Assembly: GCA_030248225.1 (NCBI GenBank)
Contig: JASANE010016202.1
Span: 1 to 64,000 of the forward strand
Direction of reading: 5' to 3'
Origin: Trileptium ribeirensis
Taxonomy: Eukaryota; Nematoda; Enoplea; Enoplida; Thoracostomopsidae
DNA length: 64,000 bases
Under the pieces are notes generated by a model, which was not told where the DNA came from, did no database searches, and saw nothing but the letters and a program-made list of their open reading frames with translations. The translations under genes and the position numbers were made by a program. This document shows positions 3,126-62,051 of this stretch, in pieces; within the stretch, counting starts at the first letter, position 1; the number at the start of each line of letters is the position of its first letter.

Positions 3126-3198
3126 TGATAATCAGTCGAAATATTTATCTCATAGAAAAACTAATACTTAAATTTCCTGGAAAAACAAACGGCGAAGG

Positions 3199-17962: not shown

Positions 17963-18033
17963 TGGACCAGCCGGGATTCGAACCCGGAACTCTAGCTTGC
18001 AAGACTAGCGCGCTACCATTACACCACAGGCCC
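17963..18033 (-). tRNA. tRNA-Ala (UGC), copy 1
   Basis: A 71-base cloverleaf folds. The acceptor stem is GGGCCTG against CTGGTCC with A73, and includes the G3:U70 pair that identifies alanine tRNAs. The D arm is GTGT/GCGC. The anticodon stem is CTAGT/GCTAG around the loop CTTGCAA (anticodon TGC), the variable loop has four bases, and the T arm is CCGGG-TTCGAAT-CCCGG. One U6-U67 mismatch lies in the acceptor stem. No intron is present. Confidence 0.92.
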
Positions 18034-18214: not shown

Positions 18215-18285
18215 TGGACCAGCCGGGATTCGAACCCGGAACTCTAGCTTGCAAGACTAGCGCGCTACCATTACACCACAGGCCC
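18215..18285 (-). tRNA. tRNA-Ala (UGC), copy 2
   Basis: This copy is identical in sequence to the one exactly 252 bp to the left, including the G3:U70 pair, the TGC anticodon and the same U6-U67 mismatch. It lies on the same strand. Confidence 0.92.
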
Positions 18286-25008: not shown

Positions 25009-25205
25009 AACTCTTAACACTGATTCAGCCACCGAACCGTCGAAAAGGCCAAAATAGCAAATAGCAATTTTACGAAGGCGAAAAATTCAATAATCCTAAT
25101 TGCTTATAAACTCTTAATAACACTGATTCAGCCACCGAACTGTCGAAAAGGCGAAAAAAGCAAATAGCAATTTTACGAAGGCGAAAAATTTAATAGTCCT
25201 AATTG
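25009..25205. repeat. Tandem duplication of the gene's last codons and 3' UTR
   Basis: Two copies with a period of about 100 bp run from AAACTCTTAA..CACTGATTCAGCCACCGAAC to CGAAGGCGAAAAATT. The upper copy overlaps the true stop codon of the copine-like gene (25173). The lower copy repeats the last nine codons (LGLLNFSPS, then TAA) near 25070-25100. Confidence 0.8.
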
Positions 25206-25389
25206 TTTAATTTCACGATATTGATCAGGGATTTCCATTAACGCATGAAGAGCGAATACGGCTTCCGGATTTTCGACACCTTCCATAACTTTATGAAAAT
25301 CAACAAAGTGAAAATTGTCATATTGACGTTTTGGAAGCGTTTCATCAAATTTTTTCATCATATGCCACGGACCATCGCCAACACCAACC
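25173..25389 (-). CDS. Exon C11: copine domain end and stop
   Basis: The acceptor is ATCAATTTTAG, with TAA at 25173-25175; 217 bp. It encodes [40 protein letters not shown] and [20 protein letters not shown], the family signature end. The acceptor and first bases of this exon are repeated eight more times upstream. Confidence 0.9.
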
Positions 25390-28300
25390 CTAAAATTGAT
25401 AAAATGATATAATGATAAGATTTTTTCATCATATGCCACGGACCATCGCCAACACCAACCCTAAAATTGATAAAATGATATAATGATAAGATTTTTTCAT
25501 CATATGCCACGGACCATCGCCAACACCAACCCTAAAATTGATAAAATGATATAATGATAAGATTTTTTCATCATATGCCATGGATCATCGCCAACACCAA
25601 CCCTAAAATTGATAAAATGATATAATGATAAGATTTTTTCATCATATGCCACGGACCATCGCCAACACCAACCCTAAAATTGATAAAATGATATAATGAT
25701 AAGATTTTTTCATCATATGCCATGGATCATCGCCAACACCAACCCTAAAATTGATAAAATGATATAATGATAAGATTTTTTCATCATATGCCACGGACCA
25801 TCGCCAACACCAACCCTAAAATTGATAAAATGATATAATGATAAGATTTTTTCATCATATGCCACGGATCATCGCCAACACCAACCCTAAAATTGATAAA
25901 ATGATATAATGATAAGATTTTTTCATCATATGCCAGGGACCATCGCCAACACCAACCCTAAAATTAAAAAATAAGTATTGTACAGCTGCATTAATTAAAA
26001 TAAAATGTTTAAATTTATAACTAAAGATAAAATATGACTTAAAAAACTACTTTGAGCATTCATTTAATGTACGAAAATCTAGAACATACTCAAATTTTGT
26101 ACTAAACCATCAGCTTTGCTGGACTGAATGACCACACCTATAAAAGATTATAGGTAAAATTACAGTTGTGTGTTTTACTACTTCTGGCTATCCTAATAGA
26201 AACTGTGTGAAATTGATGCTTCGCTAAACCCTCAGTTTTGGGATAGAAAACAACCGCACCTCGAACATTAGGGGTCAAATTATAGTTGTGTCTTTTACTT
26301 CTTCTGGTTATCCTGATGGAAACGTGAGCAACTCATCTTCCGCTAAATGCTCAGTTTTGCGAGAGTGAACAACCATACCTCTAATATTACAGGTCAAATT
26401 ATAGTTGTGTCTTTTACTTCTTCTGATTATCCTGATGGAAACGTGAGCAACTCATCTTCCGCTAAATCCTCAGTTTTGCGAGAGTGAACAACCATACCTC
26501 TAATATTACAGGTCAAATTATAGTTGTGTCTTTTACTTCTTCTGGTTATCCTGATGGAAACGTGTGCAACTGATGCTCCGCTAAACCCTCAGTTTTGCGA
26601 GAGTGAACAACCACACCTCTAACATTACAGGTCAAATTATAGTTGTGTCTATTACTTCGTCTGGTTATCCTGATGGAAACGTGTGCAACTGATGCTCCGC
26701 TAAGCCCTCAGTTTTGCGAGAGTGAACAACCACACCGCTAACATTACAGGTCAAATTATAGTTGTGTCTTTTACTTCTTCTGGTTATCCTGATGGAAACT
26801 TGTTCAACTGATGCTCCGCTAAACCCCCAGTTTTGCGAGAGTGAACAACCACGCCTCTAGCATTACAGGTCAAATTATAGTTGTGCCTTTTACTTCTTCT
26901 GGTTATCATGATGGAAACGTGTGCAGCTGAACCTCCGCTAATCCCTCAGTTTTACGAGAGTGAACAACCACACCTTTGACATTACAGGTCGAACTATAGC
27001 TGTGTCTTCTACTACTTCTGGCTATCCAGATGGAAACTGAGTGCACCTAATGCTCCGCTAGAACTTTTTGTACTAAATGCATTCAGTGGGCCGAGCAAAA
27101 ACTTGTGAAGCAACCAACCAGTTGCTTCATTAATTGTGAAATGAAATTCGTTCGTCGATAAGTTCTGTTTTTATATCATAGAGAAGTGTAAACCTAAATA
27201 TCCGGAATACAGCGTGCGAACACCGTTGCAACGTTCGTATAAAAATGACGCAACAAAATAGCTATACAAATACTTACAGTACAATCGATAGCGGATAGTG
27301 TGAAGCTCGCTGGATCGCTTTTTGGTTAATTTTCTCGTTCGTCACCTGTCCGTCGGCGACAATTACCAAAATGTGATACTGAAAATATATTTTATCCATG
27401 ACGCAAATATTTTGTCTAAAATAAAAGCAAAAAATATAAATGAATATCTAAAATATTACATAAAAATGTTATAATTATTCTAATTTGTGCACCTAAAAAG
27501 AAGATAACCATTTTTTAAGAGATAAATAAAAGAAGAAACATTACAAAGGTTTCTAACAGCCAACACTTCGTAAGTAAATAATTATATAAGAGAAAATATG
27601 AATGAATGTACGGAATTATCCAGAAAACAAAAGAAAATACATTCGCATATCCTACATAACCAATTAGACCATAATAGTAGTCAACTACCAAATAATCTAA
27701 AAAACTATAAATCTCAAAAAATGAATTATCAAAAATTATTAAATAATAAAATGTAATATATAAAATAAAATAATACATTATCAAAAAATGAAACTCTAAA
27801 AATCACATACGGCTTTCTTTTCTTTCACAATTTCGATTGCTTTATCGATCAACGGAACGAAATTAGTCGGTCCTGACAGATAGACATCCGGCGTGATTTT
27901 GTTGTAGACATTCAACACTTCTTCGAAACCTAAAATGTTATCACTATAGCTTGAGGGCACGCAATGAAGACTATGCTACAGCTATTACTTGCGATAGTGC
28001 GATATACTTACGATATGACTGGCTCACGGCAGTTCTATCGAATTTTATAACCGTTGGGTTGGGGAATCCTGAGGATACTCCTACCAATATTTTGCGCGCT
28101 GCTGATTCGTAAAATTTTTTGAAGTGTTTGACAAAAGTGCGATGATTACGGATATAAAATTGCTTAAACTGAAATCGTAACGACTGTGTCTAGAAGCCTT
28201 TGATAGTCTGGTTCCAACAGTTTTATCACAAATTTTAAATTGCACGTTTTTTAGCACATCGGCTCTTTTATCGATAAGAATTGTTTAATTACTAGTAATT

Positions 28301-31300
28301 TACTTAGCTAGGGGAAATAAAAAATTTCATAGTACAACGGTCCAGATTTTCTTTGTAATTCTGCACCTGCCAACCCAAAGATACCATTTAGTATATGCAA
28401 TCAACACAACAAATTCGTACGCTCAAAACACGGAATTTAAGACACTAAAAAACTATGGAATTTAAGAGAGGTTTCTTTGACGTTTGCGCTATCACATATT
28501 CTTTGAAAATTCAAAGAACTGTTCGTTGGAATTTTATAGAACTTCTATTTAAAGAGTTATATTATTAAGAATTATATTTGAAATTACAAAGAATAGTTCT
28601 TTGAATTTTAAAAGAATATCTGGTAATGCAAAAATCAAACAAACGTCTTTTAAATATCAAGGAAACTATTTTGAGCGAACTTATATATGTTTGTTAACTG
28701 GATTATGTACTAAAGCCGACGGGTTAGTAACATTATAATTTAAAGTTGTATTAACTAATTATAGTTGTTGTATTTAATATAGCTGCTTAATAAATTGTAT
28801 CTAATTATAGTTTGTCATTATGTTCGTGAACATAATTCTTGTTAATTCAAAAGCGATAAAATTTCGTTTACAAACAATTTTGATGTTCGCGAGCAGAAAA
28901 CAGCAAATTTTCGTTTGAGTTGAAAGAGTTCGGTAACGCAATATTTCCAAAATAACAAAATAGGATAGTCAGCGGGCGCAGGTTAAAGTTTACTCACGAA
29001 TTTAGTTTTGTATTGCTAGTAAACTAGCCGCCGCTATTAGTCATGCAGTGATCATCAATCCACAAAATTTAATATAACTTTTACAGCAAGACACAAAAAT
29101 TAAAGCCAAATTCCTATATAAATAGAAATTTTTTGAGCTGTTATTAAAATTGGAGCCTGCAACGCTGTATGTTATACACAAAATGTTACGAGTATCTTAC
29201 GGTGGGTTCACAAATCAAGCTTTTTGATCAAATTTTGACAATTAGTTTGCAATAGAAAAACATTGTTATTCTTAATTGAGTCGAAATATTAGCTCAAATT
29301 TCGAGCTCAAAATTTTTGATTTCTAATTCGTATTCCTGATTTGCTAAAGCAATATGCTAGAAAACTTTGAATTGTGGTCATACGTTCAAATTAACGCAAA
29401 AATGCAAAGATGCTCTCAACTTTCGATCCAAAATTTGATCAAAGTTTGACCACAGAATTTGAGTAAAACTTTGACGTATGAACATAAAAAAATCGGTAAA
29501 AATTCTGAACGACTAACCAGCTAACCATTGTAAACGTTTGCTTAATACAAATAAAGTGTCTTTACATTATTTGTGATACAAGTCAAATAGAAATCATAAT
29601 TTTGATGACAAATAGACGGGGATCAATACTAAAATCAATTGATTTTTTGCAGTAGCATCTAAATATTTCAATGTAAATAAGTCTTCACCAAATAGCAACC
29701 TGAAATTTGTTGTTAAGCTAACCTTTCTGATCAGGGTTTTATTATGTTAACTCTCATTTTCGTGGACGTTTTACTGGAAATCGTTTTACATATTGCAGGT
29801 ATATAGAGCAATTTCCAAAAGTTCAAAATATCAAGTTAAGCTCCCGCATTCAGCATTGTTCTGAAATTATTTATAGTTCTTTTGTGAAACTGTATACAAA
29901 ATAATAAAGGAGAAATCCTCAATTAGAGAGTGCTTTTTCTCAACGTTCCACTGCCTTACTTTCTATAGAAATACATTGCGCTCATGAAACCTAAATAAAA
30001 GTTTTCAAAATCTATTTAGTCACTGTATTCGTGCAGTTACCTAGAGCCGTATCTGCTTTTAATATACTTACTAAAAGTGTTTACGAAGCTGCTTATGAAA
30101 ACAAAAAGTAACGCTCGAACTTGCTAAAATTCTAACTTACGATGTCGAGTAAGTGCACACATTTCTCTGTGAACGACGCATAGTTTACAAAAAAACCCCA
30201 CTTACCTTGACAATATACGGCATCTTTCTTGAGCGAAAATATGGATTTGTCGAGTGTTACGTCATCGCCGAAGCCAAACGCTGGAATGAGACCGTCTTCG
30301 TCAAAACCTGATAGCGTTGCGCCGACGATTGATATTACCTAAACATACAATACAAGTAAACACGCGGATTTAGCCTTATACTGCCGGATTCAGATATCGA
30401 TTTGAGTTGAATGAATTTTGTTATCGATTTTTTTGAATCTTATTGTATGAAAAAAACAATCCAATATAGTGACTATGGCTCGCGACGCTGTGGTAATGAA
30501 TGCTAAAATATAATTGTCCTATTTGTTTTCATTGCCGTGCATTAAAGTATTATTCGCATGAAGCAATCTAGGTCGATAAACTTTCTCACAGAAGCAATTT
30601 AGGTCGTTAAACTTTCTTACAGATGCAATCTAGGTCGTTAAACTTTCTCACATAAGCAATCTAGGTCGTTAAACTTTCTCACAGAAGCAATCTAGGTCGT
30701 TAAACTTTCTCACAGAAGCAATCTAGGTCGTTATAATTTGTCACAGAAGCAATCTAGGTCGTTAAACTTTCTCAAGCAATCTAGGTCGTTATAATTTCTC
30801 ACAGAAGCAATTTATGTCGTTAAACTTTCTCACAGAAGCAACCTAGGTCGTTAAACTTTCTCACAGGAGCAATCTAGGTCGTTAAACTTTCTCACAGAAG
30901 CAATCTAGGTCGTCAAACTTTCTCACAGAATAAATCTAGGTCGTTATAATTTCTCACAGAAGCAATTTAGGTCGTTAAACTTTCTCACAGAAGCAATCTA
31001 GGTCGTTAAACTTTCTCACATTGTGGGACGATCGAGAGACTTCAATTTTGACTACCGAAATTGGATGGGTACTAACCAACCAAATAAAAACAGTTGATAC
31101 CAACTTGGAGTTCCTGATGGCGAAGCAATCGACTTTGTGGGTATGAGATGATTGGGGATCCAGAGACTATGGGGACATCACTAAAAAAATGGTGGGCCCC
31201 TTCCCGGAACCCCTTCTCCGGAAGTGCACTGGAGCCAAAATTTTAGAACATGGTTATTTCGAACATAAAGCAATAAAATTTATAAGACATGGTGTATACA

Positions 31301-34300
31301 CCATGAGCGATATAAAATTGTCGCCTTCATTCTGGCCAGCATGTATGATATATAAAACTATGCTACAACTATGTCACAAGTTAGCTGAAGTACACCTTGC
31401 CGTGAATTTATACTTCGATTAGTTAGGATGCTTAGTTTTTATCGTTAAAACTCGTTCTGCCGTTCGTCGGACCCATATAATTCAGTCACGACCGCAACTG
31501 TGCTTACACATCTTTCAATAGTTATTAGCAAGACATGAACATGTTGCAATTGTTATAGTTTAGCAAGCTTAGCTCCCAATTTATGTTAAAACTCGTTCTG
31601 CGTCCACCCATATAATTCAGTACCCCGCAACTGTGCTTACAGATCTTTCAAATAGTTACCTTAGACACACGAACATGTTGCAATTGTTATAGTTTAGCAA
31701 GCTTAGTTTTTATCGTTAAAACTCGTTCTGCCGTTCGTCGGACCCATATAATTCAGTCACGACCGCAACTGTGCTTACAGATCTTTCAATAGTTATTAGC
31801 AAGACATGAACATGTTGCAATTCGTTTAGTTTAGGATATTAGTTTTTATCGTTAAAACTCGTTCTGCCGTTCGTCGGACCCATATAATTCAGTCACGACC
31901 GCAACTGTGCTTACAGATCTTTCAATAGTTATTAGCAAGACATGAACATGTTGCAATTGTTATAGTTTAGCAAGCTTAGTTTTTATCGTTAAAACTCGTT
32001 CTGCCGTTCGTCGGACCCATATATAATTCAGTCACGACCGCAACTGTGCTTACAGATCTTTCAATAGTTATTAGCAAGACATGAACATGTTGCAATTGTT
32101 ATAGTTTAGCAAGCTTTAATGTGCTGCAACCACGCATATATACCCAGTAATGTCAACATATGTCACTAACACACGTATTTGTAAATATTTGATTAGTTCT
32201 TATACGCTTATACTGCCCAAACTGAGGGTCTCTTGCGAACACGGCAATCAGGTCATTTAAAATTTTTGCTTCAAATGAAATAAAACAAGTAGTCCAATGA
32301 TACATGTTGGTATAGGAAACCAAAAATTCTATCGAAAAATCAATAGTATCAAAGCTTAGTAACTTAGGTTAGGTTAAAATCCTTAGGATTGTAAATTATT
32401 TTCGAACGAATTCTTTATGATTATTGAAATATTGTCATAAACCGAGATACCTGTTGATAAGGATTTTGTATTTTCCGGTCGATATGATGAAGTGATTTAC
32501 CATCGAACGTAAATTCGCCTTGGTGTACGTTGCTTCGTGTATAATCGATACCTGAAATAAAAAATGAAATGTTTTATATTTCTTATTTACGGATAAAACT
32601 GTCGTATTCTATTGCATTGCGGATGTGATATTTATATTCTTGGGAACGTGATATAATTTGCATTTCGTGTACCACCGAACCATTGTAGGTCGCCGTGAGG
32701 AATAGAAGCCGGAACGCTAGATTGCAATTAACGCTCACTCGCCATTGAGCTATTTCGAAGTTGTTGCTCGGATCGTTAAGGCTCGTCTGAAAGCGATCAA
32801 ACGATAACTGCATACACCTTTATAGTACAAGGTGAATTTATATAATTATTGCCACATTTTGAAACTTAGCCCGATTTTTGTCGAACAACTGTAGGCGTTA
32901 AATGGTTTAAATATTTGGCATCTAAATTTGGATCAAAATTTCCAGTAATGACTAAATAAAAACAATTTCCGACAATAGAAGATAGACTGTAAAAGAATAA
33001 AACCATATTGGCAACAAATCGAAGTATACATAAACCGTCATAAAAAAGAATTTTCAACGACCTGTCAGATCCGAACCGATCCTATCCGTTCTAATCCAAG
33101 TCCATTTCCACGTGTATTGTGAGCATATAGAGTGTTCACATTGCATTCGATACGGTTCGAAGAAGCATGCATAGATCGCCTTGTGTCAGATCCGAACCGA
33201 TCCTATCCGTTCTAATCCGAGCCCATTCCCACGTGTATTGTGAGCATATAGAGTGTTCACATTGCATTCGATACGGTTCGAAGAAGCATGCATAATTTTA
33301 ATGAGCCAGTATGAAAAATACATTAGCGTAGATTCAGTGTACAATATCTGTGAAACTTGGTCGTATCAGATCGAAACAGAATGAAATTTGACAACATATA
33401 AACAAGACATTTAAATTCATAAGTAATAGAGATCCTGGATATATTTATATATAATATTTATAATGTATAATACAACAGATTAAATCGGCGAAACATATGT
33501 TTGATTCGTGTAAAGTTCCTGAACCCAAAGATGATAATTGTCCATATAAAATGTTACAATGTAACTGCATACGATAATGAGCAGTTTTGAATAGGTTGTG
33601 GTAATGACATGTGAAAAACGATAAAATATGCCAATCTGAACATGTTCGATGTTTCAAGATAAATTAATTAATTAACTAAGTTTTCAACATTCACAATTAA
33701 TGCGACGCCTTGGAAGGATAATGGCCTAGCCTCCTATGAGCATGTAGGATTTAGCTGATATGCCTATCTAAACCAATGACGTTATCCCCAATTCGCTTTA
33801 TGATGAGGCACCAGTACCCTGGTTATATACCACTAAAAGAAAATGTTTTCAATCCAACGATCATAACACGGCACATGGCTATTATTATAATCGAAGTTGT
33901 TGATACACAGCCCGTCCGATCACTGGGTCAAGCGCATAGGGCGGGCTGTGTATCAGCAACTTTTCAATGTCAGCGACTTTTCGATGCAACTTGGTGTTGG
34001 AAATGATTGAAAACCACTAGCTGTCTCAAAAAAGCATCTAGTTTTTGTCCTCAAACTTATATTGTATACCTTTTTCTAGATAAAATATTATGATATTATA
34101 GCGAAATGTTTCAGATTTTTGGACTAAATATTGATTCAAATGAAAAATTTACCGAATATAAGTTGACTCGATTCAAGACCGGACTTTCGTATTGCAGCGC
34201 TAATATCGTCAAGTGTATTGCGACGCTGCAAAAATCGTGGATGTCGAACGCCAACAGCTTTCAACACCGGATTTTCCGGGTTCAATTCACCATCGGCGCC

Positions 34301-37300
34301 ACGTTTTGTCATGTTTACGCTGAAAAAAAATAGCGATTTTTATTTTGTAGCGAAAATAATCATAATATAAAATTATCAAGGAGACATCGACATGTGACAA
34401 TATCATTAGGAGAGCACAGACGTGAAGAAAGAGTACATACGTGACTTTTCCGCACTTTCGTGTTAAACTAGTACAGTTGTTAGATGTCACGTATTTTTAC
34501 AGACTTTCCTCACATTACTGATAAATTTCAATATGTAAGCTGACCCATTACAGCTTGGACGGGGGACAGATGTGTTCCCAGTGTTATGGCAGCAGTTAGA
34601 CACCTTCAGGAAAACCTTCAGCGGCACCCACATTAGTTTGAGCCATGATGAATCCCAAACGCCATACTACTGGGAGCGTGTCCAAACACTAAACTGTCTT
34701 TTATTATAAGTATCTAAACAATATGATACATAAATTGTTTTGAAAATTTAATATTCAAATAAAAGCGCTATAAGCTATTGAAGGAAAATTTCACAGTTTT
34801 TATAATAGAATTTATTATAAAAACCTAACTAACTACTTATTAGCACTTACAATTGTGGAGCCGTAGGCAGTGGTCGATGATCAGTCACAGCTTGATCTTC
34901 CGGGACTTGTTGTAATATCTTCGCCGATTCACGAGCCTGTTTTCTTCGTTGCCGACGCAATGCCATCGATTCCTTAAAAATGATTTTTGCTTAGTAATAT
35001 TTTTACACTTTAGGTTATATATATAATCTGATTAATATTTTGTGCAAATGGGAGCAAGCCACCTCGTTTTGATATAAAAACACCTGCCACTCATCCAAGG
35101 ATTGAAGGACGAGCCATTCCCATGTAGCTATTTTACTGAAATAAGTTTACTTTCAAGTTCACAAAATGCTTACTTTTTTAAAAGCACATTATAAACGTAT
35201 AATATTTTAGAGACTAATCATTGGCCGTTTTCAAACACAACAACCCAAACTTTTAATATTAGAGTTCATTACAGCTCAAATTTCAGCCTCTCGCCTCAGT
35301 TTATCGCTTGTTGCAAAAAATTTACATGTGTTGTGCTTGTTTCCGATGATAAACATTTGCAACAGTTTTTGTAATTTCAGCATCTTTTGTATTTATATAT
35401 AAATCATGTTACATATATGATGTATGTTTGATGTATATATGATATATATGATGTATATATGTATATATATATATATATAATGTATATGATCTGTATATGA
35501 TGTATGCATAATATGAATATGTTTATACATATATGATGATATACATACATGTATGATCGTTCAGATGATCATCTTTCCCTTCATCGCTATCAATTTTAAT
35601 ACAATCAAGAATATATAGCTGAACAAGGAGTGTCACCATTTTCGCCGTGAAAGAGATTGGCTTATTATAATGTTTTTTTCAGCTACTCTAATACCTTTGA
35701 ACAAAAGTTCACTCACTACAATTCAAAAAATTTGGAGACAACCTGAAAGTTTAGGATAATATATTTTAAAAAATATATTCACAGAACAGAGTAATGCGGC
35801 GTTCACGTTATCATGTCCCCAACGTTTGGAACCTATGTACACCACACAGTGTCAGGCACACTGTTGACAACAGGGTGTCTTCGACACCCACATATTTTTA
35901 ATAAATTTTTTCAAAGGTATCTAGTTATGCGTATTACAACTTCTCGACAGTGTCAAGTACACCGTGTCTTATGGCAGTTTTATTGACAGGGTTCAGATTT
36001 ATTTGAGCAATGTTCATCTGGGCTACATACAAATATCGTAAATTTAGAAAAAAAACTACACGTGTCAGTTGATTAATAAACCGCATTAGCTACATACGGT
36101 GTCCGTTATAGTTAATTCACGCCAAATTAGTAGCTAAGGGTTTGTACGACACTGTCAAGAAAAATGTAGTAGCTAGGGGGTGTGTAGCAATTGATTTACA
36201 GTATGAATGTCACCCTACATGACTATACCGTAGGGTCGCGACTACAGGGGACAAAAGTTCCAAACAGCGGGGACATTATAACGTGAACGCCGCATAACTA
36301 ATTTATCGTTGAACGATTAAAAAATACTGAAATTGAGCAAACATACCTCGGAACTTTGATCTTGTACTTTCTCGGACGCAGCTGTGCTGAAAAGAGGAAA
36401 AATTAAATTATTTGGGTCGGAAATGTCATAGCGTAGAGAGGTCAAAGTCACAAATTTCGTAAAATCATTAAAACGATATTTTCTTCTTCATCATGGACCA
36501 TAGCGGTCCGTAGACGCAATATTATGACGTATGTCACGCCACCTACACCTTGAGGATTATGGCAGGACAGCTTCCTCCAAGCCAAAACAATGTCATAAAA
36601 ACTAATTATAAACAACTGGAGAATGTAACAAAAAAGTTAATAAAAAATTATTCGAACGAAAATGCTGTAGGGTATGGGCCAAAATTACTACTAAATAAAT
36701 GATATCATAAAGACGAATCATAAATAACTAGAAGTTTTACTGAGATCGTTTAGTTAGCAACATCGCTTTTAGTTTTATATTACTAGTATTTAGTTTTATA
36801 TACTTTCAAGCCCCAATTAATTTGTGTATCGTGCAATGTTTGACAAACTCAAGATGGCGCCACCGATCGATTCGTCACAAGTGAAAACTGCGTACCCAAA
36901 CCATTGAGCTGTCTAGAAGCTGTTGTTCGGTTCCTTTAGGAATAACAACGCACTTGCAAACATACATCATACTGAGCAAATACAACGCATCACATAAAAC
37001 AATATGTGCTGGATATATTTTGGGGGCGTGAATTAACAAAAATACTATATTCATACCAAAACATATTTTTCCATGTATTAAGCGAAACAAAATCAGTTAA
37101 ACAAAACCTAAATGTTGGTTCCATTCCCCAAAATCTTTTCTTTAATCCTTTGGAAATGTTTAATTTTGCAACTATCTCCTGGAAATAAATTTTGGTCGCC
37201 ACGAAATTATACTCCAAAAATATTCAGCACTCAGTATCGCTCTGCAACTTATGTGTCAATTGGACTAGCTGTTTCGTAAAATTTTAAATTTATTTAGAAA

Positions 37301-55300: not shown

Positions 55301-58300
55301 GGTGAAAACAAATATTTCTGACGTGGTCAGTCCGCATACCTCATTTTTTATTGGCAAGTCCTACTTACTCAATTTAGTACGACTATATATAAAACATTGG
55401 GTATTTCTAAACCAAAAGAAAACAGAATCACTCAGATCAACAATCCCATCCTGATAATTCCTAATCCACACAAAGATAGGAACACATTTTTGTTTCAGTA
55501 AAACTGATTAGTTTTCACACCCTCAATAAAACAACCCAAAAAAGATCCATACAATCACACTATTACAAATTTTGATAGTACCAAATTTTACGGTTAAAGG
55601 TCAAAGATTGCCGAGTAATTATGCTAATAATCACTGCTGTAAAATTAAAATTTGTAATCAAAATTAAGCTAAAACCTGAAACATATGATCATAATAGCCT
55701 CTCTATAGAAAAAAATTTTATGTCATTGTTGAAAATATTTGATTTGCTTACTTCAATTTTATCCATTCTTGTTCACTTAAAATCGATCGATATGTTTGGA
55801 AATCATCTTCCGACAACTTCCCAAGCTGTCCCTGATTTAGGGCTAAAATCGAGTCCCGTCTCTTGTTCGTAGCTTCAATGCGAGCGGTAAGTGATTTCGA
55901 TTCGTCAGGAGTCAATACGCTAAGATAGTGATCCAGCTTGTCTTCCGAAAACAGCAATGTCAGCTGCAAATCATCAAGATTTTGAACTTCCGATCGTAAT
56001 TGGATTACTTTTGCACGTTTGGACCTGAAAATATTAATACATTCAAACTTACAAACGGGTATCTGTTTTGTTTCTTGTACATGGAATGTAAACACTAATG
56101 AAAATACGTTGGGAATTTTAAAAATCACGCTTTCCAGCCTAACTCTCCACGCCGTGATCTGTTGATGGAGCGACGTATTCATTGCGGACTAGTTTTGTTG
56201 CTCGATAACATTTTGATCAAAACCGTATGGATATACAAAAACGACAAAAATATTTTGATCATGTCAGGTATCTCCATACGGTTATGAAAGGGATAAACTT
56301 GACATGATCAAAATATTTTTTCCATTTTTGTATATCTATACGTTTTGGATCAAAATGTTATGAATCAACAAAACCATTCCGCCCCGTGATCCGTTGATAG
56401 ACCGACGCATTCACTGCGGACTTTTGTTTAATCATAACATTTAGATCAAAATGCACAGATAAACAAAACATCGTAAAAAATATTTTGGTCATGTCAAGTT
56501 TCTCAATTTCATAACCGTAGGCGGATACCTGACATGAGCACTGTAGAACCGAAATTTGATGTTCAATTACGGAGCCCAAGCTAAACTTCAAAGCTTAGCC
56601 TTAGGCTTGGTGCTACAAGCTTTCATACAGTCACTTTTAACTTGACAAGATACGACAGGACAATCTTGATATGACTCTGAACGATTCCTGCCAAGGCACA
56701 AATTTAGTTCTCTTTTTTATAAAAATTATACTTCAGCCACTGCCATTCTGCACAGCCGGGCGGATGGTAAATATGGCTTAATGAGGTTCGACGTCTTTAG
56801 GTGGGTAATCTATGCACACCTACATAATGCTATAAATATAAAGTTTAGGTACCATTGGGGCAGGAGCGGTTATCACCTTAAGCCATGTTTATCCCGAAGG
56901 TCACGCACCTCCCTCTTTCCAACAATCCCAACGCCCTGGCGCAAATTTTAGCAATTATATGGTAGCAAAATTTAAAAAAATTATGTGGGTACATTGGGGA
57001 ATATAGAAAAATTATGACGAAAAATTTAGGAGAAAGGCGAAAGTTTTGGTTAAGCCTGGCCCACCCGTCCCCCTCCCCGACACGATTCAGAGAGAGATAA
57101 ATACGGCTTAATGTAGTTCGATCCTTAGGAAGATTGTAAGTTTGCCTGCACCTATGTGGTGCACCTATGCCCCAAACATAATAAACCCATGCGATTTTGT
57201 AAAGTCTAAAAAGAATGCAAACCCAAACTATCCCAGGAAAGCACATATATAATAGACTAGTGAAGCTCGCTTGCGAGCCAGAATTCGAGTGGTGAGAACA
57301 ATCACCCGAAGCAGAAGTGTGAAAAATATTTGCCACACAATATTTTTGACGCTCGCAATGAGCTTGTCGGCCCAGAAAATCCCATATTCGACCCTAAAAC
57401 CAACAATAAACACACATTCAGGTGCTTTTCCCACGACTTCTCACCAAAAATTTCGAAAACGTCATTTTTTTATGCCAAGAATGAACCAGAAGTGTAAAAA
57501 ATATTTGCCCAACAATATTTTTAATACTTGCAATGAGTTTATCTGCCCAGAAAACCCCATATAAGACACTAAAAGCAACAAAAAGCACACATTTAGGTAC
57601 ATTTCCCACGACTTTTCACCAAATATGAAATTAGGCGCCAACTATAAGATTATAGACTCTAGATTGGGAAGTAGTTGAAAAACTTGTTATATATCATTGG
57701 AAAGCCCTGGTTAAGCTACATGGAATAGGCCTATTAGTTTGCGGATGCCTCGTGTACTATTGAGAAAAGTCGCAAAAACTGGAGGGGGTGCCCGAAAAAT
57801 GGGCTAAAATGACGTCATTTTGCCCCATAACTTTTCTCACGGCAAAAAATTCAAAAATCGGAAATCGACCATTGCGGTTCGAATGAGCGATCATGCATCA
57901 AAATCCCCCCATCGAGATCCAGGTGCGACACACAGACACACACAGACAGGACCTCCTCAAACCCCCTCCAGAGCCAAAATTGAAAATTCTCGTTCCACTC
58001 GCTCGTTTCGCTCGCTCACTCCACTCGAATTCAAATACCAAAATGAAATTGGGTGGAATGAAAACTTGGTGCTTTGCTAACAATTAGCTTACAACTATCT
58101 TACTTGAGGTCGTTCAATTCAGTTTCGTTCAATAGTCTTCCAGCCTTTTCACCAAACGCAGCATCAACCATCGTCCCAAGCTCTGAGTCGCTGGATTGCA
58201 AAAGCTTTTCACGATCGTTTGTCATCTCATCGATTCTAGCTCGAACTTCATTAGTTTCATCAGAACTTAGAACAGTAAGCAGCTGTTGAAGCTCCTCCGG

Positions 58301-61300
58301 TTTCGTGAGGGCAGTTGTGATAAGTGAAACGTCAGACATTGACAAAATTTCAGTCCTCAAGTGTTGATATTCTGAACGTTTTGACCTAAAAAATTCTTAA
58401 CTCTAAACCAGTCGACAGAATGAATCATAAACTACAACGTGCTGAAATGAGCGAGTTCCGTAAAATTTTAATAATTTCAAATTTTGGAAATGTAAATCCA
58501 GCCAAATAATATTTCGAAATTTTTTATAACAAATATTAATTTTAGCCAATATTCAACTATAAAATTAAAGTATACGAGGTAATGAAAATGATTTTACAAT
58601 GCTAAAGAGACATTGACTGCAAGGAAATCGCTTTAGGAACGCCTTAAGTTTTCATGGTTCCAATCTAAAGTGCTAATTAGATCTTGTAAACCACGATATG
58701 AAAATATACACATATAGTTAGCAATATGTGTGGCTATGTCGTACACACTGCGATGCGCATCCATTGTGTGCTGGATATAATTGCGAATATGATAGTCAGG
58801 AACATAAAACAATGAATTTTATTATATATACTCGTATGAAAATTCATCCGGTTTTACACTGAAAATACTAAAGACGTGTTCACATGCTCAAACTTTTTGC
58901 TCAAATTTTGAGATCAATACTTGGCCTCAAACTTTTTTAGGTAATACATCACATCGCTGATTGGGTGAACCAATATGCTTTAAAAGTTTGAGCAGTGTTC
59001 ACACGTTCAAACTTACCAAAAATACAAAAGAGATGCTTTCAAATTTTGATCAATATTTCAGCTCAAAATTTGATCAATATTTCAGCTCAAAATTTGATCA
59101 ATATTTCAGCTCAAATTTTGATCAATATTTCAGCTCAAATTTTGATCAATATTTCAGCTCAAATTTTGATCAATATTCCAGCTCAAATTTTGATCAATAT
59201 TTCAGCTCAAATTTTGATCAATATTTCAGCTCAAATTTTGATCAATATTTCAGCTCAAATTTTGATCAATATTTCAGCTCAAAATTTGATCAATATTTCA
59301 GCTCAAAATTTGATCAATATTTCAGCTCAAATTTTGATCAATATTCCAGCTCAAATTTTGATCAATATTTCAGCTCAAATTTTGATCAATATTTCAGCTC
59401 AAATTTTGATCAATATTCCAGCTCAAATTTTGATCAATATTTCAGCTCAAATTTTGATCAATATTTCAGCTCAAATTTTGATCAATTTTCCAGCTCAAAT
59501 TTTGATCAATATTCCAGCTCAAATTTTGATCAATATTTCAGCTCAAATTTTGATCAATATTTCAGCTCAAATTTTGATCAATATTCCAGCTCAAATTTTG
59601 ATCAATATTTCAGCTCAAATTTTGATCAATATTTCAGCTCAAATTTTAATCAAAATTTGAGCAAAAAGATTGAGCATGTGAACGTACCTTTAAAACTGTC
59701 AAAAAAGTTCAAAAAAATGGCATACTCCGAGATATGTATAGTTTTACAGTGTAAGCAGAGCCATTATGGTAGTTCGAAAACACGTACCTTAATTGCTCCA
59801 ATTCATCTCCGCCGAGTGCCTTCGTCCGTTGAGTAAATTCCGACTCATTCATTTGAGCTAATGCTGCCGGTGTGGTTCGACGAATTTCGTCGATATCTCG
59901 CAGAAGTCGGTCGATACGCTCCGTTACGGCATTCGCTTCCTCGGGTTTCATAAATTGAATGTAGCGTTCGATGTCTTGTTTCCGGAGCGCAGCTAGATCC
60001 TGATCCGAAGACTCGGTTAGAAGCTTCCGACCTTTCAGAGCTTCATTACGTAAGGCGCTGAAAAAGAAATAGTTTTGTTTTACAAAGAACAAAGGACTTG
60101 GAACAAATACAATTTTTGTCCAAATTAAGCATATATGTGAAAATATCAGTGAAAAAGGAAATATTATGCGGCGTTCACGTTCTAATGTCCCCGCTGTTTG
60201 GAACTTTTGACCCCCTGTAGTCGCGACCCTACCGTATAGACAGTCAGGGTGACACCCATACTGTATATCAAATGCCGAGGGTGTACGACACACCCTTAGC
60301 TACTACATTTTTCTAGACAGTGTCGTACACACCCTTAGCTACCGATTTGGCGCGAATTAACTATAACAGACACCGTCTGTAGATAATGCGGTTTATTAGT
60401 CAACTGTCCTGTGGAGTTTTTCCTAAATTCTCCATAATTGTATATAGCCCATATGAACATTGCTCAAATAATTCCGAACACTGTCAATAAAACTGCCAGA
60501 AGACACGGTGTGCCTGACACTGTCGGTAAGCGGTAATACGCGTAACTAGCCACCGTTGAAAAAATTTATTAAAAACATGTGGGTGTCTAAGACACCCTGT
60601 TGTCAACAGTGTGTCTGACACTGTGTGGGGTACATAGGTTCCAAACGTTGGGGACATTATAACGTGAACGCCGCATTAAACATTTAAAAGAAACAGTGAA
60701 AATCCGAAAACCTGCTAAAGCAAAACGATCAGACTCTTTAAAATTGTCATCACACGGTTTTAGAAATTCAAAAATTTAGGATTACTCTCTAGTTAAGTAA
60801 AGACACTGTCAGCTATATAAAATATATAAATAAAAATAGCAATAAATAACAATAAAAATAAATAAATAAATATAAATAAATAGCTTTGGTCTATATATTC
60901 GGGAAAAATGCAAACGTGTGTTCACAATGCCAAACTTAATACAAGCTCAAAATTTGACTGTAATATATATCTATGTATATATGTATATATGTATATATAT
61001 ATATGTATATCTATATATACATGTATATAAGTATATATGTAATGAAATGTAAATGTAAATATATATGTAATGAAAAAAAACGTGTGGAAAGAAGCGATGC
61101 TCAAGAAAAATTAACCCTTTCATGCCCGAATTAATTTGTAATTTGTGTATCGTGCAATGTTTGACAAACTCAAGCCTGCGCCAGGGATCGTACCCGAAAC
61201 GTACGGGTGAAACTTGTGTACGCAAACTACTGAGCTATCTGAGAGCAGTTGCTCGGTTCCTTAAGGAACGTCACAATGAGAGCGAATAACAACGCACGTT

Positions 61301-62051
61301 CAAACGTACGATATGCGACAAACCTAGTAAAAAACGAGTCGCAATGTGCGTTTGGTCCATTTGGACCTAGTGGGCATGAGAGGATTAGTTATGCGATAGG
61401 TTAATTTTTAAAAATGTTTTGTCAAATTTTGAGCTCAAAATTGTTATGTTCTGATACGTACGAGTTTTTTTCTTCAAACGTTGGGTAGTTTTTATACTTC
61501 CAAATTGAACAAAAAACAAAAATGCTATTAAATATTGAGCTGAATGTTTGACGGTTTTTACAATCATTTCTTAATAGAATTTGAACATTAAGAACAAGGT
61601 TAGAATTGCAAAAAACAATAACGGGATTGAAGCCGTCATCAACTCTGATCTTATTCATTTTCATTTCATCATTCTTTCGTTTCTTCATTTCAGCATCGTT
61701 TAGCAACTCTATAGAGTCTACGTTGACCTGATACCCGCGGCTCAAAACATTTCTGCACACACGCACCTCTTGTCTTACCTTATTTTCTTCATTTCAGCAT
61801 CGTTTAATAACTGCGTTGCAGCTTGCTCGAAATCGCTGTCGGTCATCGTCGCCAGATCAAATCCTTTGGCTTTGAGCAATTTTTGACGAAGTTTTGTCGA
61901 CTGAGCGATTCGTAGTTGAATTGCGTCTTGTTCTTCGGGCGTGAGGTACGCAAAATTTCGACGCCGTTCCGCGTTAGTCCAATTTATTAGCTCCAGATCC
62001 GTAGTTTGGAATATTTTTACACGAATTTCGAGAGCGTCTTTACGTTTGGCG
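25173..62051 (-). CDS. Copine-like vWA protein with N-terminal ~90-residue repeats (17 exons)
   Basis: The exon chain is 61779-62051, 59788-60057, 58104-58385, 55752-56024, 48051-48320, 44220-44385, 42095-42154, 40084-40259, 37776-37907, 36347-36386, 34851-34972, 34153-34319, 32451-32551, 30206-30338, 27811-27929, 27278-27378 and 25173-25389. Every junction is GT-AG and phase-compatible. The 2902 bases are one base finishing an upstream codon plus 966 codons and a stop. Order of parts: five and a half helical repeats (no family recognised), a disordered basic Ser/Glu-rich linker, and a copine/RGLG-like von Willebrand A domain of about 270 residues that should bind a divalent metal (DYTRSN, SGPTN and ADGQ as MIDAS elements). 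No C2 domain or RING finger is seen. The first exon and start codon were not found. The R5-R6 junction is the weak point. Cellular role unknown; copines generally act in membrane or adhesion complexes. Confidence 0.7.
25361..25979. repeat. 71-bp array containing nine 3' splice sites
   Basis: TATGCCACGG (or variants) recurs at 25361, 25432, 25503, 25574, 25645, 25716, 25787, 25858 and 25929, exactly 71 bp apart. Each copy holds, on the minus strand, the intron end TATCAATTTTAG (the last, 25929, has TTAATTTTAG) plus the first 30 or so bases of exon C11. Only the 25390 acceptor continues into the full exon. Confidence 0.93.
26100..27065. repeat. 119-bp tandem array
   Basis: About eight units of CAGGTCAAATTATAGTTGTG, then CTTCTGGTTATCCTGATGG, then CTCAGTTTTGCGAGAGTGAA repeat with a 119-bp period; the outer units are more diverged. 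The array lies in the intron between C10 and C11. Confidence 0.9.
27278..27378 (-). CDS. Exon C10: copine domain
   Basis: The acceptor is TATTTTCAG and the donor CT|GTAAGT; 101 bp. It encodes [20 protein letters not shown] and [19 protein letters not shown] holds the last MIDAS aspartate. Confidence 0.9.
27811..27929 (-). CDS. Exon C9: copine domain
   Basis: The acceptor is ACATTTTAG and the donor GCC|GTATGT; 119 bp. It encodes [20 protein letters not shown] and [19 protein letters not shown]. The GPTN loop supplies the MIDAS threonine. Confidence 0.9.
30206..30338 (-). CDS. Exon C8: copine domain core
   Basis: The acceptor is ATGTTTAG and the donor G|GTAAGT; 133 bp. It encodes [20 protein letters not shown] and [19 protein letters not shown]. 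The pattern I-x-x-L-S-x-F-D-E-D-x-L-I-P-x-F-G-F-G-D is highly diagnostic of copine/RGLG proteins. Confidence 0.9.
30545..31025. repeat. 31-bp tandem array
   Basis: About fifteen units of AGCAATCTAGGTCGTTAAAC plus TTTCTCACAGA. It lies in the intron between C7 and C8. Confidence 0.93.
31430..32116. repeat. About 137-bp tandem array
   Basis: Five units begin near 31443, 31585, 31715, 31851 and 31988 with GTTAAAACTCGTTCTGC, containing CCGCAACTGTGCTTACAGAT and ACATGAACATGTTGCAATT. It is in the same intron as the 31-bp array. Confidence 0.9.
32451..32551 (-). CDS. Exon C7: copine domain, MIDAS loop
   Basis: The acceptor is TTATTTCAG and the donor CAG|GTATCT; 101 bp. It encodes [20 protein letters not shown] and [12 protein letters not shown]. 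The D-x-T-x-S-N motif is the copine form of the metal-ion-dependent adhesion site. Confidence 0.88.
33064..33300. repeat. 122-bp tandem duplication
   Basis: Two near-identical copies begin TCAGATCCGAACCGATCCTA at 33064 and 33186 and end CGAAGAAGCATGCATA. They are in the C6-C7 intron. Confidence 0.9.
33840..34012. repeat. Long hairpin-forming inverted repeat
   Basis: The arms 33894-33917 and 33939-33962 pair over 24 bases with two mismatches (AAGTTGTTGATACACAGCCC on the left arm), with a 21-base loop. Outer flanks also pair (GTTTTCAATC near 33845 and GATTGAAAAC near 34004). It is probably a palindromic MITE in the C6-C7 intron. Confidence 0.7.
34153..34319 (-). CDS. Exon C6: start of the copine-like domain
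   Basis: The acceptor is TTTTTTTCAG and the donor CG|GTAAAT; 167 bp. It encodes [20 protein letters not shown] and [20 protein letters not shown]. The last residues are the first strand of the A domain, leading into the MIDAS loop on the next exon. Confidence 0.85.
34851..34972 (-). CDS. Exon C5: basic helix and linker
   Basis: The acceptor is TTTTTAAG and the donor TT|GTAAGT; 122 bp. It encodes [20 protein letters not shown] followed by [17 protein letters not shown]. The first half is probably a charged helix. Confidence 0.8.
35400..35555. repeat. AT-rich microsatellite (ATATATG-type)
   Basis: Interrupted runs of TATATGATG and TATATA lie in the C4-C5 intron. Confidence 0.8.
35795..36294. 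mobile_element. PIF/Harbinger-like MITE, copy 1
   Basis: A 500-bp element with terminal inverted repeats starting TGCGGCGTTCACGTTATCAT at one end and TGCGGCGTTCACGTTATAAT at the other. It is flanked by the 3-bp duplication TAA. The copy at 60167 is in inverse orientation. The 3-bp TWA duplication is the PIF/Harbinger signature. It sits 53 bp from exon C4. Confidence 0.82.
36347..36386 (-). CDS. Exon C4: 40-bp linker exon
   Basis: The acceptor is CTCTTTTCAG and the donor GAG|GTATGT. It encodes [13 protein letters not shown] and bridges the AG|C serine codon from C3 to the phase-0 start of C5. Confidence 0.75.
36816..36975 (-). mobile_element. tRNA-derived SINE, copy 1
   Basis: It shares ATTTGTGTATCGTGCAATGT, TTTGACAAACTCAAG and GTTCGGTTCCTTTAGGAA with the copy at 61131. 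Its internal promoter boxes are more degraded than in that copy. Confidence 0.6.
37598..37729 (-). repeat. Duplicated 3' part of exon C3 with its donor
   Basis: A near-perfect copy of 37744-37876, covering the exon from [13 protein letters not shown] to PSPST and the start of the following intron. The base before the donor is T rather than G (CCAT|GTTAGT). No acceptor precedes it, so it is read as intron. Confidence 0.88.
37776..37907 (-). CDS. Exon C3: basic and acidic linker
   Basis: The acceptor is GTATTCAG and the donor AG|GTTAGT; 132 bp. It encodes [12 protein letters not shown] followed by [19 protein letters not shown]. Lys/Arg clustering suggests a nuclear-localisation or membrane-binding patch (inference). 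Its 3' part and donor are duplicated just downstream (37598-37729). Confidence 0.82.
38560..39100. repeat. Degenerate 42-56 bp tandem array
   Basis: About ten loose units of AGCTAGACTATTTTATCCTG plus GTTGTTGTGATTAACATTGA. It is in the C2-C3 intron. Confidence 0.8.
39101..40083. other. Intron sequence without recognised feature
   Basis: The rest of the C2-C3 intron. Open frames on the plus strand overlap the antisense of exon C2 or carry no recognisable motif. Confidence 0.4.
40084..40259 (-). CDS. Exon C2: disordered linker
   Basis: The acceptor is GTTTTTCAG and the donor GG|GTAAAT; 176 bp. It encodes 58 residues rich in Ser, Asp and Glu ([39 protein letters not shown]). The split codon GG|T joins to C3. 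Confidence 0.8.
40345..41222 (+). mobile_element. Interspersed repeat family A, copy 2 (uninterrupted)
   Basis: About 880 bp, from AGTGAAGCTTGCTTGCGAGC to CCCCTCGAATTCAATT. It is the empty-site homologue of 703-4435: at the point where the pogo element is inserted there, this copy reads GTTATATATCATTGGAAAGC. It is in the C1-C2 intron and followed by an ATT microsatellite (41240-41265). Confidence 0.8.
41460..42090. other. Intron sequence with degenerate AAATTT stretches
   Basis: No exon is visible. The part 41600-41760 has fuzzy AAATTTCGAGAAAC-like low complexity next to a C/G-rich strip (41570-41600). Confidence 0.35.
42095..42154 (-). CDS. Exon C1: linker
   Basis: A 60-bp exon with acceptor GATTTTAG, donor CCG|GTAAGT, phase 0 at both ends, encoding [20 protein letters not shown]. 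The internal ATG at 42143-42145 is an alternative start if R6 is not joined. Confidence 0.75.
42155..44219. repeat. R6-C1 intron with a 191-bp tandem duplication
   Basis: Two copies near 43056 and 43247 share CAGCATCCAA, CCCAGAAATGTGAAATTTCC and AGTTAGGCGCTAGCTTGTCT. The rest is AT-rich, with AAATTTTT-type low complexity (42480-42620) and AATTAATTTAAT runs (43700-43780). Confidence 0.75.
44220..44385 (-). CDS. Exon R6: half repeat joining to the copine part
   Basis: The acceptor is ATTTCAG with phase 2 entry; the donor CGG|GTAAGG leaves in phase 0. It encodes [20 protein letters not shown] and [20 protein letters not shown]. It stops at the middle of the repeat, right after the PEE..RID helix. 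The phase switch lets the repeat array join the phase-0 exon at 42154. It could instead be the first coding exon of a shorter transcript (ATG at 44340). Confidence 0.72.
44895..45005. repeat. About 52-bp tandem duplication
   Basis: Two copies of ATCAAACGGAGA followed by GAATAGAAGCAGAAAAA and ACACAGT. They are in the R5-R6 intron. A long minus-strand open frame across it (44874-45197) has no recognisable domain. Confidence 0.7.
45340..45515. mobile_element. TTAGGC-bearing MITE, diverged copy
   Basis: It contains AGCTTAGAGCGAGGGGTTCG, CTGACTTAGGCTTAAGC and CTAAGGCTTAGGCTTTGTAT, matching 21952-22167 in the same orientation with decayed ends. Confidence 0.5.
45520..48046. other. Intron sequence without recognised feature
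   Basis: A long AT-rich portion of the R5-R6 intron. No exon-like segment, RNA gene or element end was identified. TATATA-rich runs occur at 47470-47520 and 47815-47870. Confidence 0.4.
48047..48320 (-). CDS. Exon R5: helical repeat 5, splice or stop
   Basis: The acceptor is TACTTCCAG with phase 2 entry. It encodes [38 protein letters not shown] and [20 protein letters not shown]. At the position where the other repeats splice (AA|GTAAG) it reads AA|GTAGAG. Used as a donor this gives a 270-bp symmetric exon ending at 48051; unspliced it ends in Lys and TAG at 48047-48049. Confidence 0.75.
48520..48845. repeat. About 158-bp tandem duplication
   Basis: Two copies of AAATCTCTTGTAATGAACGC through AAGACGCGTCTTAAGAGATG, at about 48519-48678 and 48682-48840. 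They are in the R4-R5 intron, 200 bp before exon R5. Confidence 0.88.
49390..49805. repeat. About 103-bp tandem array, four units
   Basis: Units share ATAAAATCCTGGTTCCTGCC, AAAGACCGAGCAAATCTA and CAAGTAAGTGTTCCCTTGAAG, with GACCGAGCA near 49472, 49575, 49677 and 49781. They are in the R4-R5 intron. Confidence 0.88.
50237..50442. mobile_element. TTAGGC-bearing MITE, inverted copy
   Basis: It reads TTCTCGATATAGTAAGCCTA, ATTAGTCTTAGCCTAAG and CGTCCGGCCCCTAAAGGTG, ending in ACATGGGCC; this is the reverse orientation of 21952-22167. It is in the R4-R5 intron. Confidence 0.55.
50885..51600. repeat. Compound tandem array (GACAACCTTGAGCGTC)
   Basis: Units of GACAACCTTGAGCGTCAAAA, TTATTCTGCATCTCGACACT and GTAAGAAACCCTGGTCTTGA alternate with an extra short copy of the first segment, giving a composite repeat of about 89 bp that decays toward 51600. 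Confidence 0.88.
51605..53445. repeat. 93-bp satellite with higher-order structure
   Basis: About twenty units of CATTCCGCATGCTAGAGTGA, TTGTTGTCTATTAAGAGTAA and GGCTTTAGGCTTCTCACTAT. Because 93 is divisible by three and the unit lacks stops in one frame on each strand, long repeat-peptide frames appear on both strands. They are artefacts. A variant unit (TTAGCTATTGGCTATTAAGA or close, with GGATCCGAGCTGAGC) recurs 551 bp apart. Confidence 0.95.
53446..55751. other. R4-R5 intron remainder
   Basis: AT-rich sequence with no supported exon. The part 54597-54985 resembles 62485-62895 (CCAATTCTCAACCACCGTAA against CGAATTCTCAACTACCGTAA), a further interspersed repeat pair. Confidence 0.45.
55752..56024 (-). 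CDS. Exon R4: helical repeat 4
   Basis: The acceptor is TATTTTCAG and the donor AA|GTAAGC; 273 bp, symmetric phase 2. It encodes [38 protein letters not shown] and [20 protein letters not shown]. It ends in the same helix as R3 and R5. Confidence 0.82.
56148..56560. repeat. Duplicated hairpin element next to R4
   Basis: Two related units near 56148 and 56386 both contain GCGGACT, AACATTT and AAATATTTTG then TCATGTCA. Within the first, arms of about 75 bp (TTTTGATCAAAACCGTATGG on the left) pair with 56290-56365. It is probably a palindromic MITE with a tandem copy. Confidence 0.65.
57264..58036 (+). mobile_element. Interspersed repeat family A, copy 3
   Basis: It starts AGTGAAGCTCGCTTGCGAGC and ends CCACTCGAATTCAAA. 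Compared with 40345-41222 it lacks about 280 bp after ATCACCCGAAG and carries an internal duplication of the CAGAAGTGTGAAAAATATTT segment. It is in the R3-R4 intron, ending about 70 bp before R3. Confidence 0.8.
58104..58385 (-). CDS. Exon R3: helical repeat 3
   Basis: The acceptor is TTTTTTAG and the donor AA|GTAAGA; 282 bp, symmetric phase 2. It encodes [38 protein letters not shown] and [20 protein letters not shown]. Reading through the donor gives an immediate TAA, which supports splicing here. Confidence 0.82.
58873..59690. mobile_element. MITE with 33-bp inverted ends and an internal 24-bp array
   Basis: The ends read GTTCACATGCTCAA, A or T, then CTTTTTGCTCAAATTTTG from both sides. 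The interior is about 25 copies of TTTGATCAATATTTCAGCTC plus AAAT (59040-59650). The array unit resembles the inner part of the terminal repeat. It is in the R2-R3 intron. The long repeat-peptide open frames on the plus strand are not genes. Confidence 0.8.
59788..60057 (-). CDS. Exon R2: helical repeat 2
   Basis: The acceptor is TTTTTCAG and the donor AG|GTACGT; 270 bp, phase 2 at both ends. It encodes [38 protein letters not shown] and [20 protein letters not shown], aligning throughout with R1. Confidence 0.82.
60167..60675. mobile_element. PIF/Harbinger-like MITE, copy 2
   Basis: A 509-bp element with the same TGCGGCGTTCACGTT ends and the 3-bp duplication TTA. It is the reverse-oriented relative of 35795-36294. 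No coding capacity. It is in the R1-R2 intron. Confidence 0.82.
61131..61320 (-). mobile_element. tRNA-derived SINE, copy 2
   Basis: On the minus strand AGATAGCTCAGT (61229-61240) matches a Pol III A box and GGGTACGATCCC (61184-61195) a B box, about 34 bp apart. The acceptor stem does not form, so it is not a functional tRNA gene. A second copy at 36816 supports dispersal. Confidence 0.65.
61635..61705 (-). repeat. Stray copy of the end of exon R1
   Basis: The minus strand carries CTAAACGATGCTGAAATGAA followed by GAAA, almost identical to the end of R1 (LLNDAEMKK) about 100 bp upstream, but without the GTAAG donor. It is a local duplication inside the R1-R2 intron. Confidence 0.7.
61779..62051 (-). 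CDS. Exon R1: helical repeat 1
   Basis: The acceptor is TTTTTTAG and the donor AG|GTAAGA, with entry and exit both in phase 2, so the exon (273 bp) is symmetric. It encodes [17 protein letters not shown], then [20 protein letters not shown] and [20 protein letters not shown]. It must be preceded by another exon, which was not found in 62052-64000. Confidence 0.8.

Follow-up and report, generated by a model that had tools for sequence, protein, structure and literature searches.

A probable copine gene of CPNA-2-like type in the nematode Trileptium ribeirensis whose front half encodes a repeat array predicted to be all-helical

A copine-like domain lying downstream of an unfamiliar repeat array raises the question of whether the two are parts of one gene and, if so, to which kind of copine that gene belongs. 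Both are encoded on the minus strand of contig JASANE010016202.1 of Trileptium ribeirensis (assembly GCA_030248225.1), of which positions 1 to 64,000 of the forward strand, 64,000 nucleotides in length, were analyzed and are called the window here. An earlier note, made from the sequence alone, had proposed 17 minus-strand exons with matching phases and 966 sense codons, and this model was reproduced by splice scanning and joining. The exons run from 62051 to 25173 with GT-AG borders and keep the frame at 16 of 16 junctions, giving 2902 nucleotides and a single stop codon that ends at 25173. The start of the gene lies outside the window, beyond the 5’ end, and exon R1 is thus the first exon visible rather than the first of the gene; a phase-blind exon scan found no upstream exon scoring above decoys in 62052-63900. 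It is probable that the locus represents a nematode copine gene of the known CPNA-2-like type, with a front half made of exon-encoded repeats predicted to be all-helical.

The identity of the C-terminal part was examined with a 946-residue model containing all exons except exon X. Its C-terminus matched Pfam Copine with an E-value of 2.1e-65, in agreement with the copine/RGLG-like character assigned to it earlier, and Copine and vWA-TerF-like were the only Pfam domains found in the model at E <= 0.01. The domain is entered through exon P (34153..34319) and is encoded by five vWA exons: V1 (32451..32551), V2 (30206..30338), V3 (27811..27929), V4 (27278..27378) and V5 (25173..25389), the last of which also carries the stop codon. 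All five residues of the metal ion-dependent adhesion site (MIDAS; DxTxS, Thr and Asp) are present, within the motifs DYTRS in V1, GPTNF in V3 and VADGQ in V4, respectively. Among the 110 of 112 homologues that could be aligned after a length filter had removed two, the D, T and S of the first motif were found in 109, and the separate T and D in all 110. The nearest solved structures are the vWA domains of plant RGLG5, RGLG1 and RGLG2 (E 3e-76 to 3e-69; RGLG5 entry 8xt5, E 3.4e-76), which are termed E3 ubiquitin ligases in the PDB, whereas the vWA domain of the canonical copine BONZAI 1 was a far weaker match (E 2e-17). RGLG E3 ligases carry a RING finger after the vWA domain. By contrast, the Pfam scan of the 946-residue model found no RING, and there is none behind the domain, where the chain comes to its end with a stop codon 4 residues beyond the RGLG5 match. 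Canonical copines possess two C2 domains before the vWA domain (PMC10968396). The window gene shares their vWA superfamily, but no C2 domain was found by Pfam in the approximately 690 residues before exon P; the part of the gene upstream of the window may still contribute further domains. Both absences had been implied in the earlier note.

That note had also suggested that the architecture may be undescribed. This holds for the array, which matched no described domain in the searches made, but not for the C2-less, RING-less layout, which is known from CPNA-1 and from proteins labelled Copine family protein 2. Our homologue search covered candidates of about 520-1655 residues and the 7988 sharing most words, and returned the 112 homologues; relatives of greater length that carry the repeat may thus have been missed. 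Among the homologues, the best single-domain matches came from nematodes, in some cases under the label Copine family protein 2, and shared 64-68% identity over the domain. The three top rows by E-value came from outside the nematodes, namely from Sinanodonta, from Thraustotheca and, in a eukprot row, putatively from the sponge Ephydatia; several vWA domains per chain, if present, would account for their E-values. In a tree of 42 rows, composed of 41 hand-picked homologues and the window domain, with C. elegans CPNA-2 absent from the set, the window fell into a ten-row clade with support of 100/97. Its members include proteins of Anisakis (P0006) and Trichinella (P0010 and P0014) labelled Copine family protein 2, together with proteins of Pristionchus, Haemonchus, Caenorhabditis brenneri, Thelazia and Meloidogyne and one more. 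C. elegans CPNA-1 (P0087), Brugia CPNA-1 and their orthologues lie in a separate, well-supported sister clade; there, too, the copine vWA domain ends a long protein, and no repeat of the window kind was found. Of the proteins of CPNA-2 type, the 14 listed have 521-1319 other residues in front of the copine domain, and P0006, P0014 and P0015 resemble the window model in showing only Copine and vWA-TerF-like in Pfam at E <= 0.01. As judged from these sequences, nematodes therefore already possess long proteins that end in a copine domain and have neither C2 nor RING; copine genes with a vWA domain and without C2 have also been reported in the geoduck clam (PMC10729735). Several features of the placement weigh against a simple assignment. 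The branch leading to the window row is long (0.36), and support for the position of this row within the clade is only 94/78. The CPNA-2 name itself is weak. Just three of the ten rows in the clade carry the label Copine family protein 2, four Trichinella rows in the sister clade carry it too or come from proteins that do, and C. elegans CPNA-2 is not named among the 112 matches. With that reserve about inconsistent source labels, the window gene appears to be of CPNA-2 type.

What, then, precedes the linker and the vWA domain? Splice scanning and a repeat profile placed five repeats in one exon each, all of phase 2-2: R1 (61779..62051), R2 (59788..60057), R3 (58104..58385), R4 (55752..56024) and R5 (48051..48320). 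R6 (44220..44385, phase 2 to 0) holds a shortened repeat of about 55 residues. Profiles built with one repeat left out recovered the omitted copy in every case (R1 1.9e-16, R2 8.7e-10, R3 2.2e-17, R4 6.6e-13, R5 3.5e-7 and R6 1.2e-8), the best unrelated open reading frames (ORFs) reaching E 0.1-1.7, and a six-repeat profile found no further copy in the window. The five and a half copies of the earlier count thus stand as a lower bound for the gene, with leave-one-out E-values of 3.5e-7 to 2.2e-17, although the unit of about 90 residues does not. AlphaFold models of R1 and R4, made from the five-repeat alignment, showed the same seven helices (mean predicted local distance difference test scores of 87.8 and 88.4), in which one pattern of a long helix and two short helices occurs twice. 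When a profile of the first halves was compared with the second halves, 0, 10, 0, 0 and 1 of 200 shuffles were equally good. The reverse comparison was weaker and speaks against too firm a division (6, 4, 2, 34, 0 and 1 of 200 shuffles). Models and sequence together lead us to a basic unit of about 45 residues, present twice in every full exon; R6 contains a single unit followed by the beginning of another. Across each exon junction, the final short helix of one exon is expected to run on into the first helix of the following exon as one long helix, and modules sharing such junction helices would form an extended stack, a helical rod or solenoid. The uniform 2-2 phase of the full repeat exons means that copies can be added, removed or skipped with the reading frame preserved.

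The connection between array and vWA domain depends on a linker of about 177 residues, which is low in complexity with acidic and basic stretches. It includes exon X (42095..42154; 60 nucleotides, 20 codons, phase 0-0), the low-complexity L1 (40084..40259), L2 (37776..37907), which is basic and then Ser/Glu-rich, the 40-nucleotide exon M (36347..36386), which is the weakest single exon, and the Arg-rich L3 (34851..34972). We scored acceptor, donor and codon use without regard to phase over 63900-25500, with L1, L2, M, L3 and X excluded from training. The 16 splice-flanked exons of the model took the top 16 places among non-overlapping candidates of the minus strand (lowest score 20.2), followed by a minus-strand candidate of 17.8 and a top plus-strand decoy of 18.0. 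Exon X came up in this top 16 although the scan was untrained on it. In a stricter scan, training was limited to R1-R5 and V1-V5, and the region between R5 and V1 was tested against 100 dinucleotide shuffles. The seven best candidates coincided with the seven model exons, and the seventh-best scored 20.4, compared with at most 12.8 in the shuffles. The exons L1 and M are nevertheless weak individually, because the single best shuffle scores reach 24.6 (95th percentile 21.0). It also counts against the model that identical ends were obtained for only 5 of the 7 linker-region exons: the L1 donor moved to 40185 and the L2 donor to 37783, both of which would break the frame, and the two donors are to be regarded as uncertain. 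Taken together, the exon chain as a whole is solid; individual linker borders are less so. A further splice-flanked open segment at 35549-35618 scores just below the weakest model exon, with 17.8 and 18.7 in the two scans, and could not be joined to the chain in phase at its downstream end.

These scans bear directly on the possibility that two neighbouring genes, or a separate short transcript, have been joined, with the array ending in or after R6 and the copine part starting by trans-splicing at X, L3 or P. In-frame ATG codons lie 9, 6 and 7 nucleotides past the acceptors of X, L3 and P, respectively, which would fit a trans-spliced second gene or isoform and argues against a single continuous transcript; the one in P would permit a short isoform. 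The intron between R6 and X contains three AATAAA motifs, with 2.0 expected by composition, so that a poly(A) signal is possible there, if not marked. On the other side, phases match at all 16 junctions of a chain whose exons were ranked phase-blind (the two donors of the stricter scan aside). Moreover, when R6 is extended beyond its donor, the 40 codons added look non-coding, with a score of -5.7, every model exon being above zero, and R6 should therefore splice onward. No candidate between R6 and X was found among the best 40 listed in the phase-blind scan or the best 12 in the stricter one, and the 14 listed relatives have long N-terminal parts as well. We therefore regard two genes or a separate short transcript as rather unlikely. 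A single gene, with or without a shorter isoform, is quite likely, and placement of repeats and vWA domain on one transcript is strongly suggested by these sequence features.

Given one gene, is the array known from elsewhere? The earlier note had not recognized the repeat, and neither the protein databases, within the length limits of the searches, nor the 112 copine homologues and Pfam revealed it as a domain already found with copines. The default search found it in 0 of 112 homologues, and an unfiltered repeat profile gave scattered domain scores below 5 bits, with the best full-sequence E-value (0.029) coming from a Trichinella protein. Profile-profile comparison with Trichinella and chromadorean alignments gave E 0.21 and 0.83. 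The single-repeat profile, run against 5.8 billion proteins, had no match at E <= 1 among 706 candidates, which included only proteins of about 50-160 residues, and the search with the 511-residue array had none at E <= 10 among 7993 candidates of about 280-890 residues; because of these length limits, longer repeat-bearing relatives could be missed. Self-BLAST is blind to these repeats, finding none even in the window model, which has them.

The array may instead belong, in strongly diverged form, to a known helical class, such as spectrin-like, MgtE/FliG-like or Maf extended homology region domains, rather than a new family. The best PDB match of the 90-residue profile was MafG (E 0.29), and the half-unit profile brought MafG to E 0.069. 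No match was significant, however: MafG was absent from the fold-search rows listed for R4, Foldseek gave no E-value below 1 for the R1 or the R4 model, single repeats reached a best Pfam E of 0.015, and the 946-residue model contained no Pfam domain at E <= 0.01 beyond the two of its C-terminus. Membership in such a class is thus possible, if doubtful. In the half-unit search, four ETV6 fusion chains reached E 0.002-0.004 as whole sequences and were set aside, as no stretch of them passes alone. Structure prediction on single repeats gave seven helices each without a significant fold match, and with the two halves alike it did not bear out a 90-residue unit.

The clade of Copine family protein 2 shares with the window gene the C-terminal copine vWA domain and a long N-terminal part, and differs from it in that this part is unlike the window array, with no significant match by BLAST, hidden Markov model or profile-profile comparison. 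Nor do Trichinella and Chromadorea have a homologous N-terminal part in common. We compared the N-termini of eight proteins (six chromadorean, two Trichinella). Several of the chromadorean ones matched each other and the Trichinella pair matched, while between the two groups, among the matches listed, only one lay near the start of the copine domain. Because matches are confined within the chromadorean or the Trichinella group, the N-terminal end seems to evolve fast or to be replaced often. The novelty lies in the array itself, which is orphan, exon-encoded and helical and sits in a CPNA-2-type gene.

We also considered whether the model could be an assembly artefact, with unrelated exons joined, or a decaying pseudogene. 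Tandem arrays crowd the introns, and local duplications affect part of L2 as well as both ends of V5, as would suit such a locus. By contrast, 966 codons are read without a frame break, the metal-site residues are intact, and the repeats have all stayed open although they share only 24-29% identity with R1 (P 0.0024 for a random frame of 90 codons to be open). An artefact or pseudogene is therefore very improbable.

The duplication at V5 is a 71-bp tandem array of 8.8 copies with 97% matches (25349..25972), which takes in the end of the last intron and approximately the first 40 nucleotides of V5. It sets nine splice acceptors with the same 16-nucleotide core in a row, only the last of which opens the full V5; from the eight upstream decoys, the frame stops after 33 residues. 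A 103-bp duplication at 25004-25209 has copied the end of the last exon, including the stop codon, just downstream of the gene, and a 147-bp tandem duplication (37596-37876; 1.9 copies, 98% matches) extends over most of L2, its second copy seemingly without an acceptor. Intron tandem arrays were found at 26102-27060 (119 bp), 30560-31020 (31 bp), 31423-32116 (136 bp), 49397-49810 (103 bp), 50896-51441 (62-89 bp), 51604-53437 (93 bp) and 59039-59662 (24 bp); in the 93-bp array, both strands have open frames of up to 240-247 codons. Elsewhere, the window contains a transposase-like ORF of 464 codons at 1740-3131 with DDE_1 and a Psq-type helix-turn-helix, a fragment of endonuclease/exonuclease type at 8904-9602 that is probably derived from an element without long terminal repeats (LTRs), and pieces of an LTR-type retroelement at 15187-17636 (reverse transcriptase, RNase H and integrase) in several minus-strand frames. 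Beside these pieces are two tRNA-Ala(TGC) genes with equal scores, at 17963-18033 and 18215-18285.

Which role might such a protein play? Since the N-terminal parts of the relatives do not resemble the array, its function cannot be transferred by homology, and what can be proposed comes from kin of the vWA domain. C. elegans CPNA-1 is reported to bind Ig1-3 of UNC-89 and to be located at M-lines and dense bodies (PMC12812942), and proximity labelling in C. elegans is described as having enriched CPNA-1 and CPNA-2 in muscle samples (PMC8446793). By analogy, we infer a function as a muscle adhesion scaffold: the protein would be intracellular, most likely in muscle, with a role comparable to that of CPNA-1, which in C. 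elegans connects sarcomeric proteins with integrin adhesion complexes. In such a scaffold, the vWA metal site would grip one partner, the linker would provide flexibility, and the helical rod would set a distance and offer further binding surfaces. A point on the other side is that null or nonsense cpna-2 strains of C. elegans have served in complementation tests, the passages on which mention no muscle defect (PMC5345728). On balance, we favor with moderate confidence one gene of CPNA-2 type, composed of a helical repeat array, a linker and a C-terminal copine vWA domain, with a scaffold role in muscle. A further and more speculative scenario is that a new family of 45-residue, three-helix units, doubled per exon and multiplied as phase 2-2 exons, replaced the ancestral CPNA-2-type N-terminus in one nematode lineage. 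The array would then extend beyond the 5’ limit of the gene part seen here, and the product would be a giant helical protein of muscle adhesion that grows or shrinks in evolution as exons are gained or lost. We put this forward only tentatively.

As CPNA-1 illustrates, C2-less copines of nematodes tie giant muscle proteins to sites of integrin adhesion. CPNA-2 is little described in the open literature searched, being named only in passing in the passages concerned (PMC8446793 and PMC5345728). An orphan array on a CPNA-2-type gene would represent a clear natural replacement of the N-terminus in a conserved scaffold, and would add a new helical repeat.
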